Positions 46,525 to 51,978 of a DNA stretch of 64,000 bases are shown here, piece by piece (the first letter of the stretch is position 1; the number at the start of each line of letters is the position of its first letter). The notes beneath the pieces are model-generated. The model made no database searches, was not told the origin of the DNA, and saw only the letters and a program-made list of their open reading frames with translations. The position numbers and the translations under genes are program-made. The stretch covers positions 2,480,001 to 2,544,000 of the forward strand of contig NZ_CP040887.1 of NCBI RefSeq assembly GCF_006337125.1, given 5' to 3'. The DNA comes from Serinicoccus chungangensis. GTDB taxonomy: Bacteria; Actinomycetota; Actinomycetes; Actinomycetales; Dermatophilaceae.

Positions 46525-46980
46525 TCAGCGCGGCAGGGTGGCGAGCAGGGCGAGAGCGCGGTCGACCGAGTCCGGGGGCAGCGCACCGCTGCCCCCCAGC
46601 GCGGTACGCACGTAGATGCCGTCACTGACCCGGAGCACGAGGAACGCCAGGTCGGCGTCCCCCAGCGCCGTCGTGAGCGCCTCGAGGAAGTGGTCGTCCA
46701 GCCGCACGAGGGCGTCCCGGGCCACCTGGTGCTCGTCCAGCTGCCCGATCTTGAGGAGCGCGAGGTAGGTGCGGTCCAGCGGCTGGTCCGCGGCGACCGA
46801 CTCCCGCAGGAACACCTCCAGGGCGTCGGGCATCCGGGAGAGCCGCTCCTCCTCCGCGGCCTCGAAGGCCCCCAACCGGTCGGCCAGGCCCTGGACGAGC
46901 GCGTCCTTGGAGCCGAAGTGGTAGAGCAGCCCTCCCTTGGAGACGCCCGCCTGGTCGGCCGTCGCCGCGAGCGTCCCGGC
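46525..46980 (-). pseudogene. N-terminally truncated TetR-family repressor
   Basis: The readable frame gives TLAATADQAGVSKGGLLYHF, the recognition helix region of a TetR DNA-binding domain, and continues intact to the stop. The first 25-30 residues of the DNA-binding domain and any start codon are missing. Upstream, the DNA instead encodes the MFS frame on the other strand. TetR proteins of this kind usually repress a divergent efflux pump, which fits the truncated MFS next door. Loss of the N-terminus should abolish DNA binding. Confidence 0.85.
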
Positions 46981-47466
46981 GCGACTGGGCCGGCCTCGCC
47001 GTGCTGATGCTGCCCGTGCTCCTCGTGTCCATCGACACGACCGTGCTGAACGTCGCCCTGCCCCAGATCGCGCGGGACCTCTCCCCCACCGCCGCCCAGC
47101 AGCTGTGGCTCATCGACGCCTACCCGCTCGTGCTGGCGACGCTGCTGGTGACCATGGGCACGGTGGGTGACCGGGTGGGTCGGCGTCGCACCCTGCTGGT
47201 GGGAGCCACCGGTTTCGCCGGGGTCTCGGTCGTGGCCGCCGTCGCCCCGACAGCCGAGCTGCTCCTCCTCGCGCGGGTCGCCCTGGGCGTCTTCGGCGCC
47301 ACGCTCATGCCGGCCACGCTGTCGCTGCTGCGCACGATGTTCCTCGACCGCGCCCAGCGCCGCCTGGCCGTCGCCATCTGGGCGACCGCCTTCTCCGTCG
47401 GGTCCGCCCTGGGCCCGGTCGTGGGCGGGATCCTCCTGGCGCGCTTCGCGTGGGGGTCGGTCTTCC
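46980..47466 (+). pseudogene. 5' part of a DHA2-type drug-efflux MFS gene, interrupted by an ISL3 element
   Basis: The frame begins RDWAGLAVLMLPVLLVSIDT and contains TTVLNVALPQIARDL, the conserved motif C region of 14-helix DHA2 efflux pumps. The first dozen residues and the start codon are missing, merged with the truncated tetR. It ends at RFAWGSVF, where the element at 47467 inserts. Joining it to 51186 restores RFAWGSVFLVAVP in frame. See the partner fragment at 51186-51978. Confidence 0.9.
47459..47466. repeat. Left copy of 8-bp target site duplication (GGTCTTCC)
   Basis: GGTCTTCC here and at 51186-51193 are identical and immediately flank the element at 47467-51185. An 8-bp duplication is typical of ISL3-family transposition, so the whole 3.7-kb unit inserted as one event. 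Confidence 0.93.
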
Positions 47467-47633
47467 GGCTCTTCCCAGATGAGGGTGTAGGTCGGCCGGG
47501 CGCGTCGGTCCGCAGGTAGACGTCGAGGTCTCCCGACGACGGAGGTTCCTACGCCATCCATCCGAAAGACCTCGACGTGACCGACGCTACCCCGCCGGCC
47601 GGGCTCCGGCCGCCCTGACCTGACCGCCTTCGC
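47467..47633 (+). mobile_element. Truncated left-end copy of the ISL3 element
   Basis: The 167 bases match 49747-49912 with a handful of substitutions and one single-base indel, and include the transposase GTG start at 47577. The similarity ends abruptly at 47633 where unrelated passenger DNA begins. This stub supplies the left terminus used in the latest transposition. Confidence 0.92.
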
Positions 47634-47862
47634 GTCTCATCCCCATCGACCCTGATCGAGTCTGCTGACCCCCCTCGACGAGAACGCAGCGACATCACAG
47701 CCACCCAACCCCGACCGTCCGGGAAGCCGGGACACGTCACATGGCCTGTGCTGCGGGCGTGTCGAGTGGGTCGTCCAGGGGCGACGCAGGAGCGTCGACG
47801 CGACGTGCTGAGAGGTGGTTCCAGTCGAGCACTAGGACACCGGCTACAGGCATGGCGATAGG

Positions 47863-48804
47863 TCAGGAACGGCGTCGCTCCCTACGCAGGAGGGAGCGCA
47901 GAGTCTCGGCGTTCGCGTAGCCGACCCGTAGCGCGATCTCGGCGGAGGTGAGGTCCGTGGTTGCTGAGAGGTGCCGAGCTCGTTCGATGCGAAGCCGTTG
48001 GACGAAGCCGAGCGGAGTGAGGTTGAGCGCCGCACGGACTCGTCGTTCGAGGGTGCGCCGGCTGGTGCCGAGCGACTGCGCGACGAAGGCGACGTTGAAC
48101 GGTTCGTCCAGGCGGGCGCGCACGAAGCGTTCGAACTCGACGACGATCGGGTCCTCGTGCCGGAGATGTTCGTAGGCGACGAAGGCCGCCTGCGACGGAC
48201 GCTCGTCGATGATGAGGAGCTTGGCGACATGTTGGGCCAGGTCGGGGCTGATCGATCGCACGAGTGAGAGCGCGAGGTCGATGTGGGCGAACGCGGCGCC
48301 GGCGGTGACGAGGTTCCCGTCGACCACGACCATGGTGTCGAGATCGAGGGCGACGGTCGGATAGCGCTTCAGGAACTCCGGCCCCAGGAACCAGCTGGTC
48401 GTCGCCCGCCGATGATGCATCCGTCCGGTCTCGGCGACAGCGAACACGCCGGTGCACGCCGCGGCAATCCGGGTGGTCGCGTCGTCGAGGCGCCCGAGCG
48501 AGGCGATGACCGAACGAGCATCTCGGCTCTGGAGGGCGTCGTTGGTAGCGGCGGCCGTGAGGGTTCCAAGCGCAGGGACGACGACCACGTCGAACTCTGC
48601 GGACTCCGACAGCGGGTGGTCCACCGACAGGGTCATCGATGCCGTCGTGGTCACTCTCCGTTTCGGTCCGAGGATGGCGAGTTCGATCGGGTCGATCCGC
48701 GGGTCGACATCGCCGCGGGCTCCGTCGGCCACCCGCACGATGTCGATGACCGACGCGACAGCCGAACCGAAGCAGCCGTCGATCGCGATCAGTCCGATAC
48801 GCAT
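47863..48804 (-). CDS. DJ-1/PfpI (GATase1)-AraC transcriptional regulator, passenger gene
   Basis: The 313-residue protein has an N-terminal DJ-1/PfpI fold with the nucleophile-elbow motif AAACTGVFAVAETG near residue 105 and the RRATTSWFLG segment. A C-terminal AraC HTH with two helix-turn-helices follows (NVAFVAQSLGTSRRTLERRV, then SAEIALRVGYANAETLRSLL). Proteins of this class sense small molecules and control adjacent genes. ATG at 48804 is taken because IGLIAIDGC is the fold's first strand. It is divergent from the ABM-fold gene, which it most likely controls. The 229 bases between the IS stub and its stop hold nothing I recognise. Confidence 0.85.
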   Translation of the reverse strand: MRIGLIAIDGCFGSAVASVIDIVRVADGARGDVDPRIDPIELAILGPKRRVTTTASMTLSVDHPLSESAEFDVVVVPALGTLTAAATNDALQSRDARSVIASLGRLDDATTRIAAACTGVFAVAETGRMHHRRATTSWFLGPEFLKRYPTVALDLDTMVVVDGNLVTAGAAFAHIDLALSLVRSISPDLAQHVAKLLIIDERPSQAAFVAYEHLRHEDPIVVEFERFVRARLDEPFNVAFVAQSLGTSRRTLERRVRAALNLTPLGFVQRLRIERARHLSATTDLTSAEIALRVGYANAETLRSLLRRERRRS

Positions 48805-48912
48805 GGCGCGAACAATAGCAATACTGTCGTATACGCCACTTCTCACCTGCCCTTGCTCGTCATACGCTGAACTCGCTTCACCAAGAAGCCTCGACACCTA
48901 GGAGAACCCCTC

Positions 48913-49224
48913 ATGTCCACACCCGCATCACTTCCGTATGCCTTCGTCGCCAAGATCGTCGCGGCCGATGGACAGCACGACGCGCTCGCCGATCTGCTCG
49001 CCGGCGCTGTCTCGCTCGCCAACGAAGAAGTAGGAACGATTGTCTGGTTCGCGGTCAGGACCCACGCCGACACCTTCTGGATCTTCGATGCATTCCCCGA
49101 CGAGGCCGCTCGCGACGCCCACGCCAACGGCGCCATCGTCGCAGCCCTGATGGCCAACCAGCACCTCCTCGGCGCAGCACCCGAGATCCTGGCGGCCGAC
49201 GTCCTCGCGTCCAAGCTCCCGTAG
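48913..49224 (+). CDS. Antibiotic biosynthesis monooxygenase (ABM)-fold protein, passenger gene
   Basis: The 103-residue protein fits the ABM ferredoxin-like fold: FVAKIVAADGQHDALADLL, then GTIVWFAVRTHADTFWIFDA and DEAARDAHANGAIVAAL. Such small enzymes include quinol monooxygenases and heme- or polyketide-modifying oxygenases; the substrate is unknown. A ribosome site AGGAGA lies 8 bases before the ATG. It is transcribed divergently from the AraC-type regulator with 108 bases between. The pairing is the likely functional cargo of the element. Confidence 0.8.
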   Translation: MSTPASLPYAFVAKIVAADGQHDALADLLAGAVSLANEEVGTIVWFAVRTHADTFWIFDAFPDEAARDAHANGAIVAALMANQHLLGAAPEILAADVLASKLP

Positions 49225-49746
49225 TCCGCCAACGCACGAGACGATCGCGCCCCGCCGAGCCGTCGCCAGGTCGCGACGCAACGCCACGCTGCGTTGCCGA
49301 GCGGTGCGAGGCCTATCGGCACACGGACAGGATGCCGGCCGCGAGCGCTCAGTCGGCGAGGGGTCCGTCGCAGAGGAGAGCGACGTCGGTGTCGGGCAGA
49401 GCCGTGAGGCCAGCGCATCGCGCGACCACCAGAACCGAACCGCCCCTGCCCTGCGTTTCCGCAGGTCAGGGGCTGTTCGCCGGAGCCGCCTGCCGGAATC
49501 GAACCGACGACCTCATCACGTCGGCTTTGCGTCTATCGCTTGATGCGCCCACTGGGCGAACGAGCCGCTGACCTGCGCAAACGCCGAGCGTGGGGGACGC
49601 CGCCATCCGGTGGTGACCGACGACGACCGACCAGTACCGACCGTTTCACCGGAGCCTGCGGCGGCGTCGAAGCCGAGCAAGCTCCATTCCTTTAGCTCAC
49701 CGCGCCCTCCTCCTCGCCGGTGCTGTCGTCGTCGAAGACGTTTCAG
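49225..49746. other. Non-coding end of the passenger segment
   Basis: No convincing gene is seen in these 522 bases. They contain a hairpin (49442-49473) and, at about 49487-49530 on the minus strand, a tRNA T-arm-like stretch (GTCGGTTCGATTCCGGC) without a matching acceptor or D-arm. The latter may be a tRNA 3' fragment captured with the passenger. Confidence 0.5.
49442..49473. terminator. Hairpin in the passenger segment
   Basis: GCCCCTGCCCTGCG (49442-49455) and CGCAGGTCAGGGGC (49460-49473) pair with one mismatch around a 4-nt loop. It could terminate transcripts of the ABM gene or of the DNA from which the passenger was taken. Confidence 0.6.
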
Positions 49747-49800
49747 GGGTCTTCTCAGATGAGGGTGTAGGTCGGCCGGGCGCGTCGGTCCGCAGGTAGA

Positions 49801-49857
49801 CGTCGAGGTCTCCCGACGACGGAGGTTCCTACGCCATCCATCCGAAAGACCTCGACG
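49801..49857 (+). promoter_or_regulatory. Hairpin sequestering the transposase start
   Basis: CGTCGAGGTCT (49801-49811) pairs with AGACCTCGACG (49847-49857), and the G of the transposase GTG start is the last base of the stem. Read-through RNA would fold this way and block translation. Many IS elements use such a structure to limit transposase when copied by an outside promoter. The same arms are present in the left stub (around 47521-47577). Confidence 0.6.
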
Positions 49858-51182
49858 TGTCCGACGCTACCCCGCCGGCCGGCTTCGGCCGCCCTGACCT
49901 GACCGCCTTCGCTCGACTCGACGGCCTCGGTCTGAGCGTGACCGGACAACGACTTGAACCGGGTCGTGCGGTCCTCGCGTGCCGCGTGGTGGAACCAGAT
50001 CAGTGGTGCCGACGGTGCGGCATCGAAGGCGCTGCTCGTGACACCGTGATCCGGCGGTTGGCCCACGAGCCGCTGGGCTGGCGACCGACCGTGCTGGAAG
50101 TTGTAGTGCGCCGCTACCGCTGTGCCGACTGCGGACACGTGTGGCGCCAAGACACCAGCGCCGCGGCGGAGCCACGCGCGAAGCTCTCGCGCACCGGGCT
50201 GCGGTGGGCGCTGGAAGGGATCGTGGTCGCACACCTCACCGTCGCCCGTGTCGCCGAGGGACTCGGGGTCGCGTGGGACACCGCCAACAACGCGGTCCTG
50301 GCTGAAGGCAAGCGGCTGCTGATCAACGACCCCACGCGGTTTGAGGGCGTGAAGGTCATTGGCGTCGATGAGCACGTCTGGCGCCACACCAGGCGTGGCG
50401 ACAAGTACGTCACCGTGATCATCGACCTCACCCCGGTCCGCGATGGCGCCGGCCCAGCAAGGCTGCTGGACATGGTCGAGGGCCGGTCGAAGGCGGCGTT
50501 CAAGACCTGGCTCGCCGACCGCGACGACGCCTTCCGTGACGCGGTCGAGGTGGTCGCGATGGACGGCTTCACCGGGTTCAAGACCGGCGCTGCAGAGGAG
50601 ATCCCGGACGCGGTCACGGTGATGGATCCCTTCCACGTCGTGCGCCTGGCCGGTGACGCCCTCGACAGGTGCCGGCGCCGGGTCCAACTCGCGATCCACG
50701 GGCACCGTGGGTTCAGGGACGACCCGCTCTACAAGTCGCGGCGCACGCTGCACACCGGCGCGGACCTGCTCACCGACAAGCAGAGCGACAGGCTACGCGC
50801 GCTGTTCGTTGATGACGCTCACGTCGAGGTCGAGGCGACCTGGGGTGTCTACCAGCGCATGATCGCCGCCTATCGCCACGAGGACCGGCAACGTGGCCGC
50901 GAGCTCATGGAGAAGCTGATCACCGACCTCAGCGCCGGCGTCCCCAAGGTGCTCACCGAGCTCACCACCCTGGGCCGGACCCTGAAGAAGCGAGCCGCTG
51001 ACGTGCTCGCCTACTTCGAACGACCCGGCACCAGCAACGGGCCGACCGAGGCGCTCAACGGACGGCTCGAACACCTGCGCGGCTCCGCACTCGGGTTCCG
51101 CAACCTGACCAACTACATCGCCCGAAGCCTGCTCGAGACCGGCGGCGTCAGACCCCAACTCCTACACCCCCGATTGGGATGA
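49857..51182 (+). CDS. ISL3-family transposase
   Basis: The 441-residue protein has an N-terminal zinc-binding region with CxxC pairs (WCRRCG and YRCADCGHVW), a HTH, and the DDE catalytic core (VIGVDEHVW for the first Asp, VVAMDGFTGFK for the second, and a C-terminal Glu in GPTEALNGRL). This domain set is the ISL3 family. The start is GTG at 49857, and the stop is three bases from the right end of the IS. It is intact and could still be active in transposing either the IS or the whole 3.7-kb unit. Confidence 0.93.
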   Translation: MSDATPPAGFGRPDLTAFARLDGLGLSVTGQRLEPGRAVLACRVVEPDQWCRRCGIEGAARDTVIRRLAHEPLGWRPTVLEVVVRRYRCADCGHVWRQDTSAAAEPRAKLSRTGLRWALEGIVVAHLTVARVAEGLGVAWDTANNAVLAEGKRLLINDPTRFEGVKVIGVDEHVWRHTRRGDKYVTVIIDLTPVRDGAGPARLLDMVEGRSKAAFKTWLADRDDAFRDAVEVVAMDGFTGFKTGAAEEIPDAVTVMDPFHVVRLAGDALDRCRRRVQLAIHGHRGFRDDPLYKSRRTLHTGADLLTDKQSDRLRALFVDDAHVEVEATWGVYQRMIAAYRHEDRQRGRELMEKLITDLSAGVPKVLTELTTLGRTLKKRAADVLAYFERPGTSNGPTEALNGRLEHLRGSALGFRNLTNYIARSLLETGGVRPQLLHPRLG

Positions 51183-51185
51183 GCC

Positions 51186-51193
51186 GGTCTTCC
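51186..51193. repeat. Right copy of 8-bp target site duplication (GGTCTTCC)
   Basis: This matches 47459-47466 exactly and directly follows the right end of the ISL3 compound element. Confidence 0.93.
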
Positions 51194-51978
51194 TCGTGGC
51201 GGTGCCGATCCTGCTGCCGCTGCTCGTCCTGGGCCCCTTCCTCGTCCGGGAGTCGCGGGACCCGGCCCCCGGCCGGGTGGACCCGGTCGGGATCGCGCTG
51301 TCGATGGCCCTCAGCGTCGTCGCGCTGACCGGCTTCCTCTTCTTCGTCACCCAGCACCTGCAGCTCGTCGAGGGCATGCCCGCGCTCGACGCCTCCCTCG
51401 TCCTGGTGCCGGGCGTGGTCGCCATGGTGGCCTCCGGCCTCCTGGTGGTCCGGCTGGTGCGGCACGTCCGACCGGCCACCGCCGTGGTGGGCGGGCTCAC
51501 CTTCTCCTTCAGCGCCTACGCCCTGCTCGCCGTGGGCGGCGAGACCGTCACGGTGCCCCAGATCGCGCTGGCCTTCGCCCTCCTCGGACTGGGCATCGGA
51601 GCGGCCGAGACCATCTCGAACGACCAGATCCTCACCGCCGTCTCCCCGGCCAAGGCGGGGGCCGCCTCGGCGGTGAGCGAGACCGCCTACGAGTTCGGCG
51701 CCGTGCTCGGCACCACGGTGCTGGGCGGGATGCTGACGGCCGTCTACCGCTCCTCGCTGCGCGTCCCCGCCGGCACCGACGAGGACGCCGCGGCCGCCGC
51801 CCGCGAGACCCTGGGCGGCGCGGTCGCGGCGGCGGAGCGGACCGGGGACCCGCACCTGCTGGAGGCGGCCCGCGCGGCCTTCGACGCCGGCGTGGGCGTC
51901 ACCAGTACCGCGGGCGCCGTCCTCGTGGCTGTCGCCGCCCTGGTCGCCTGGACCACGCTGCGCCGGGCCGAGAGCTGA
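51186..51978 (+). pseudogene. 3' part of the DHA2-type MFS gene, with an internal deletion
   Basis: The frame resumes at FLVAVPILLPLLVLGPFLV after the target duplication and runs to its natural stop. After ESRDPAPGRVDPVGIALSM it passes directly into ALSVVALTGFLFFVTQHLQL. In intact DHA2 pumps about 70-80 residues (helices and the LFRNRxF-type loop) usually lie between these. An in-frame deletion at about 51300 is therefore likely, in addition to the IS insertion and N-terminal loss. The length estimate comes from family knowledge, not an alignment. Confidence 0.8.

Follow-up and report, generated by a model that had tools for sequence, protein, structure and literature searches.

How can DNA that carries only one complete insertion sequence (IS) have moved as a single unit together with genes outside that IS? 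This question is raised by a 64,000-nucleotide stretch of contig NZ_CP040887.1 (referred to here as the window), in which a DHA2-type MFS transporter gene is broken by a 3719-bp segment (47467-51185). The comparisons described below make it very probable that the segment is a compound ISL3 element: a two-gene cargo lies between the left-end remnant of one ISPfr2-like IS copy and another copy that is complete, and moves with them as a unit. An 8-bp target duplication is a mark of the ISL3 family, and inspection of the sequence identified the octamer GGTCTTCC adjoining both ends of the segment, at 47459-47466 on the left and at 51186-51193 on the right. An earlier reading of this DNA made without database searches (the sequence-only reading) had placed a 3.7-kb unit between these coordinates, and they are correct.

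Structure and insertion site of the unit

From left to right, the unit consists of a 167-bp stub, a divergent gene pair, a stretch containing the 3' fragment of a tRNA-Thr gene, and a complete 1439-bp ISPfr2-like IS (49747-51185, forward strand, by sequence and comparison with annotation). The stub (47467-47633, forward strand) contains the end of an ISPfr2-like IS and the start of its transposase gene, and is 97-98% identical to the corresponding left end of the full IS (compared with 49747-49912), which bears out the view that the unit holds one full IS and one left-end stub. The outer left inverted repeat GGCTCTTCCCAGATGAGGGTGTAGG (47467-47491, forward strand) is the outer end of 35 duplication-bounded copies discussed below, and is thus the end assigned to movement of the unit. 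The right inverted repeat CCTACACCCCCGATTGGGATGAGCC (51161-51185, reverse strand) is common to IS and unit, and stops directly before the right octamer. The inner left inverted repeat (49747-49771, forward strand), where the full IS begins, has no target repeat of its own. All three ends are related and begin with GG, as in the ISL3 family; the right end matches the outer left end at 20 of 25 positions and the inner left end at 18. The two left ends match each other at 23 of 25 positions, and differ at positions 3 and 9 (GGGTCTTCT for the inner variant in the window, GGCTCTTCC for the outer; the outer type is written GGCTCTTCCC and the inner type GGGTCTTCTC). The 441-amino-acid transposase (49857-51182, forward strand), named after ISPfr2 by NCBI, was identified as an ISL3-type DDE transposase by matches to NF033550 (361.7 bits, cut-off 180) and PF01610 (189.1 bits, cut-off 23, E 1.4e-55). 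A whole-genome search found no second near-identical IS copy in the window genome. Partial IS matches of 73-82% do occur elsewhere in it (G000:C1:2184492-2185090, L002 and L003), and are probably remnants.

The left part of the interrupted transporter gene (47001-47466) and its right part (51186-51978), both on the forward strand, were recognized from profile matches and from the reading frames of relatives; the best NCBIfam matches (LfrA) fall far below the cut-off of that model. An empty, uninterrupted site had been proposed as confirmation of the insertion, and was found in relatives. Setting aside Serinicoccus chungangensis (G028), both parts lay in one frame with no internal stop in 18/18 relatives at the locus (L027-L044), eight of which (L037-L044) have a left piece only 53-61% identical and may represent paralogues. 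In the ten closer relatives a single octamer position occupies the meeting point of the two flanks, and reads GGTCTTCC in seven, CGTCTTCC in two and CGTGTTCC in one. The sequence-only reading had also claimed that removal of the unit and one octamer restores the MFS frame. This was supported by comparison with the relatives, and needs amending for further damage to the gene. In the window the right part lacks about 195 bp (at ~51309-51310) that are retained in S. chungangensis and in further relatives. A second gap, of about 178 bp around the TetR and MFS gene starts (window ~46960-47000), is common to the window genome and S. chungangensis, relatives having this DNA. Both of these divergent genes, for the TetR regulator and the MFS transporter, appear to lack their start regions. 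Intact MFS copies occur in relatives.

S. chungangensis (L055/L006), the single relative in which these junctions were found, carries the same unit at the same site; the two junctions were not met as separate IS copies in unrelated contexts. Its flanks are for the most part 99.3-99.6% identical to those of the window, falling to 95% in the first 139 bases of the right flank, and its cargo is the sister of the window cargo in the cargo tree (100/89). Because the same unit lies at the same place, the insertion probably predates the split of the two genomes.

Recurrence in other actinobacteria

Further loci were collected by whole-genome searches, a transposase scan of named genomes (80 of 553 relatives kept) and a search of plasmids (18 of 111 records), a collection that is not a census. 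Removal of duplicates by flank left 81 right-end loci. Cargo and outer left end were both present in 47 of these, of which 46 were testable for a target site duplication (TSD); outside the 46 stood one copy at a contig end (L052) and 17 cargo loci without the outer end, several of which are shorter stretches of copies counted elsewhere. A perfect 8-bp duplication flanked the outer ends of 35/46 testable units, this site included, with 34 different octamers, while 10,000 shuffles of the right flanks gave at most 6 matches. These 35 TSD-bounded units comprise 25 copies in 18 named genera and 10 in other genomes. A target repeat at the inner end was found in none of the 47 units. Cargo-less copies had an 8-bp repeat in 7 of 13 testable cases, a set that includes two fragments of cargo copies (L057 and L060), and the octamers of the 35 units and these seven copies are AT-rich in the middle. 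Together with the uninterrupted site in relatives, the 35 insertions with repeats at outer and not inner ends support movement of the 3.7 kb as one unit.

The junction between stub and cargo was identical in all 62 copies with an outer end that were examined, all picked for that end and 47 of them also for the cargo. This shared junction points to a single origin of the unit. A search of other genomes for the same outer ends with other passengers had been suggested. The unit has spread through Actinomycetota and is not a local feature, and no outer end joined to a different cargo was seen among the 81 right-end loci. A left-end pattern (at most one mismatch) was found in 26/396 genomes of the order and 9/394 of the class; the pattern is not specific to the unit, as shown by G760, where it marks a solo IS of 73% similarity.

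Several observations weigh against the compound-element reading. No TSD was present in 11 of the 46 testable copies, five being Rhodococcus plasmid copies, which implies that rearrangement or recombination followed insertion in some copies. Certain copies, among them L221, L246 and L247, are placed differently by the IS tree and the cargo tree, which suggests recombination between copies with exchange of parts; many branches are poorly supported in both trees, and the IS-tree bootstrap had not stabilized, which applies to every IS-tree value given here. The unit in the window genome, being shared with S. chungangensis, may also be immobile now.

Cargo genes

The first cargo gene (47863-48897, reverse strand) encodes a GlxA-type regulator with a DJ-1/PfpI domain and an AraC helix-turn-helix (PF01965, PF12833). 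Its start is probably the internal ATG of 'MRIGLIAIDG', which gives the 314 codons counted in the selection test. The second (48913-49224, forward strand) encodes a 103-amino-acid protein with an antibiotic biosynthesis monooxygenase (ABM) domain, resembling quinol monooxygenases. PF03992 falls just below its cut-off, annotation sources give putative quinol monooxygenase or antibiotic biosynthesis monooxygenase, and the nearest solved structure (PDB 2pd1, E 3.5e-23) is itself described as a 'hypothetical protein'. The tRNA-Thr 3'-end fragment (49482-49513, reverse strand) gave short matches of 88-97% at genomic tRNA-Thr genes (six loci), and RNA searches of the unit found no complete tRNA or other known RNA.

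We considered whether these genes are passive hitch-hikers of no benefit to the host. In favour of such a role, a transporter gene is disrupted by the insertion, and any function of the cargo is inferred only. However, among 80 cargo loci (not all independent) no cargo gene was visibly broken: the regulator was complete at 78 loci and the ABM gene at 79, three others being cut by contig ends, whereas by the same test the transposase was complete in 45, flagged in 25 (for a stop, a gap or a match over only part of its length, some of them truncated by the end of the stretch) and not found in 10. With loci cut by contig ends left out, the ratio of nonsynonymous to synonymous differences (pN/pS) was 0.28 for the regulator (2211 pairs, 67 copies), 0.23 for the ABM gene (2278 pairs, 68 copies) and 0.33 for the transposase (903 pairs, 43 copies). 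Both cargo genes are, by this measure, under purifying selection, and a passive role for them is improbable. The regulator and the ABM enzyme are kept intact and passed around across many genera. The protein names and the HbpS-like gene that neighbours the cargo in a longer form of the unit weakly support a guess that the cargo provides regulated protection against a reactive compound. Similar gene pairs (89% identity in G168, 81% in G301 and G312) have no stub or IS in the stretches examined, and the cargo genes are therefore probably of chromosomal origin.

Inner left end, origin and related elements

The unit occurs in three main forms. Type A, the form in the window, is ~3.7 kb; type B has a further 360 bp after unit position 1799 (~4.07 kb); and in type C (~3.19 kb) a deletion joins position 1796 to IS position 27, so that the inner left end is gone. 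The inner end is missing from 10/35 TSD-bounded units, in which the outer end must therefore have served for transposition. The inner-deleted units form a clade in the IS tree (11 entries, 100/99).

An inner left end that is dead, forcing IS and cargo to move together, would account for joint movement in general. Consistent with this, 23 of the 35 TSD-bounded units have a C3G change in the inner end, accompanied by C9T in 19 of them (GGGTCTTCTC), and ten lack the end altogether. However, genome G475 has two solo IS copies (L213 and L214) that begin with GGGTCTTCTC, each with its own perfect TSD, and L234 moved with GGGTCTTCCC as its outer end. A whole-genome pattern search of G475 found just two left ends, those of the solo copies, and no outer end; the IS tree groups the two copies with type-A units (98/82), and they were apparently derived from a unit. 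An IS with an inner-type end and its own TSD indicates that the resident IS can leave the unit. A dead inner end is thus refuted as a general rule and is quite unlikely to explain joint movement, while a quantitative weakening of the end is possible. The sequence-only reading had likened the structure to a passenger-carrying transposon. Movement as a unit supports the comparison, which G475 refines in that the inner end is not inert. The element acts like a compound transposon whose inner end is altered yet functional, and only type C looks committed to carrying its cargo.

Under this compound-element model, the transposase of the full IS would cut at the outer left end, within the stub, and at the shared right end. 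The whole 3.7 kb would have entered an 8-bp target that was then duplicated, comparison of copies showing that it moved as a unit. The unit would have had a single origin, probably when two direct IS copies flanked a chromosomal gene pair and a deletion took away most of the left one, as we infer from the shared stub/cargo junction. It has since reached many actinobacteria and lost further DNA by deletion; in some lines the IS can still leave alone by way of the inner left end, and the deletion of that end in one clade would have produced a committed cargo-carrying transposon. We slightly favour the further view that the copies form a natural series from a single origin, from active through changed to lost inner end, along which two cargo genes under selection come to be bound for good to an ISL3 transposase. 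If so, they offer a directly comparable record of the birth of a cargo-carrying IS. With dozens of copies to compare, the element also illustrates in detail how a composite transposon turns into a unit element.

Two separate events were also considered, in which an IS entered the MFS gene and was reduced to a stub, and recombination later brought in another IS together with the cargo. Only a single complete IS is present, and copies do recombine elsewhere, as this would require; however, the whole unit sits at 34 other places with matching outer octamers and the same stub/cargo junction, and the 47 units without an inner-end TSD likewise make such a history very unlikely. A transposable module (TMo), in which an IS missed its own left end and took neighbouring DNA up to an end-like sequence, would suit one IS with adjacent DNA and one alternative outer end, but is equally improbable given that the outer end is a true left end (23/25 identical to the inner one, within 167 bp of IS at 97-98%) and that the cargo junction is the same in the 62 copies examined.

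The compound element can be placed among known systems. Its IS resembles ISPfr2, an ISL3-family element of Propionibacterium freudenreichii, and solo 1439-bp copies with the same ends and 8-bp repeats occur in the genomes examined here. The unit differs in its cargo, as ISPfr2 is apparently described without one in the available portions of the literature: in the accessible text of the P. freudenreichii genome paper, ISPfr21 and an ISPfr11-derived cassette are the only elements said to bring other genes with them, and the accessible report on Brevibacterium mentions ISPfr2 without cargo. In the plasmid records examined, annotation gives an ISPfr2-family transposase beside ordinary genes, and the cargo has thus gone unrecognized as mobile. 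As far as the available descriptions extend, two ISL3 elements are recorded with 8-bp repeats. A single pair of IS ends that encloses the transposase and unrelated genes and moves as one is also the arrangement of transporter ISs (tIS) such as ISPst2 of the ISL3 family, in forms of which the cargo is an ArsR regulator and a permease and 8-bp repeats are recorded. Unlike in ISPst2, the second left end here is a recognizable 167-bp remnant and the inner end is kept in most copies, and the origin from a compound element is therefore visible. Cargo that ordinary transposition is unable to leave behind, a mark of a tIS, does not hold with an active inner end (G475) and is expected in the inner-deleted clade; the unit appears to be a compound element on its way to a tIS. 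Composite (class I) transposons, as described in the sources available, likewise have cargo between IS sequences whose transposase moves it, here with the outer ends used together; they differ in having two complete flanking IS copies where the unit has one complete IS and a 167-bp stub. The TMo of the ISPme1/ISEcp1 type resembles the unit, in the accessible accounts, in joining one IS to adjacent DNA, but the outer end here is a real IS end with 167-bp homology, and the cargo junction is constant in the copies examined. Mobile insertion cassettes differ in that the unit has its own 441-amino-acid transposase. We found no published description naming this unit in the open-access literature, subscription papers and ISfinder lying outside the search. 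The further claim of the sequence-only reading, that structures of this kind are seldom described for ISL3, was not established by that search. Since ISL3 elements with cargo, tISs and composite transposons are already known from the sources available, the unit appears to be a further example of such elements.

Two aspects of the main forms bear on their ancestry. The 360-bp segment of type B was rejected as a nested mobile element, as inspection by eye found no inverted or target repeat at its borders and its carriers occupy both basal and dispersed positions in the cargo tree; loss of this old DNA from the 3.7-kb form is the likelier account. Nor were units that keep an intact inner end accepted as proof of the ancestral state, since in Pseudonocardia oceani the IS of such a unit is identical to two solo copies in the same genome, and gene conversion is as likely an explanation as ancestry.

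Other copies are enlarged or rearranged. L218 (4355 bp, TSD GCGAAACC) additionally carries an HbpS-like gene (L218:2490-3099), which is present, by sequence, in L216, L248 and L250 (L248:3620-4030, on which the PF03928 match was made). L218 also repeats part of the end of the ABM gene, and in L248 a further reading frame starts after the HbpS-like gene. Larger forms that would end in another IS with outer repeats, such as L248, were rejected, as no matching octamer was found downstream. L163 has an IS after unit position 2052 and a perfect outer TSD; this position is 13 bases from that of the IS in L057, L060, L064, L068 and L091. In these five the IS follows unit position 2065, with the same left junction and five different right flanks, and L068, the one testable copy, has no outer repeat. 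In L101 (5876-9534), unit positions 1-2224 adjoin a different ISL3 transposase, 82% similar and in the opposite orientation.

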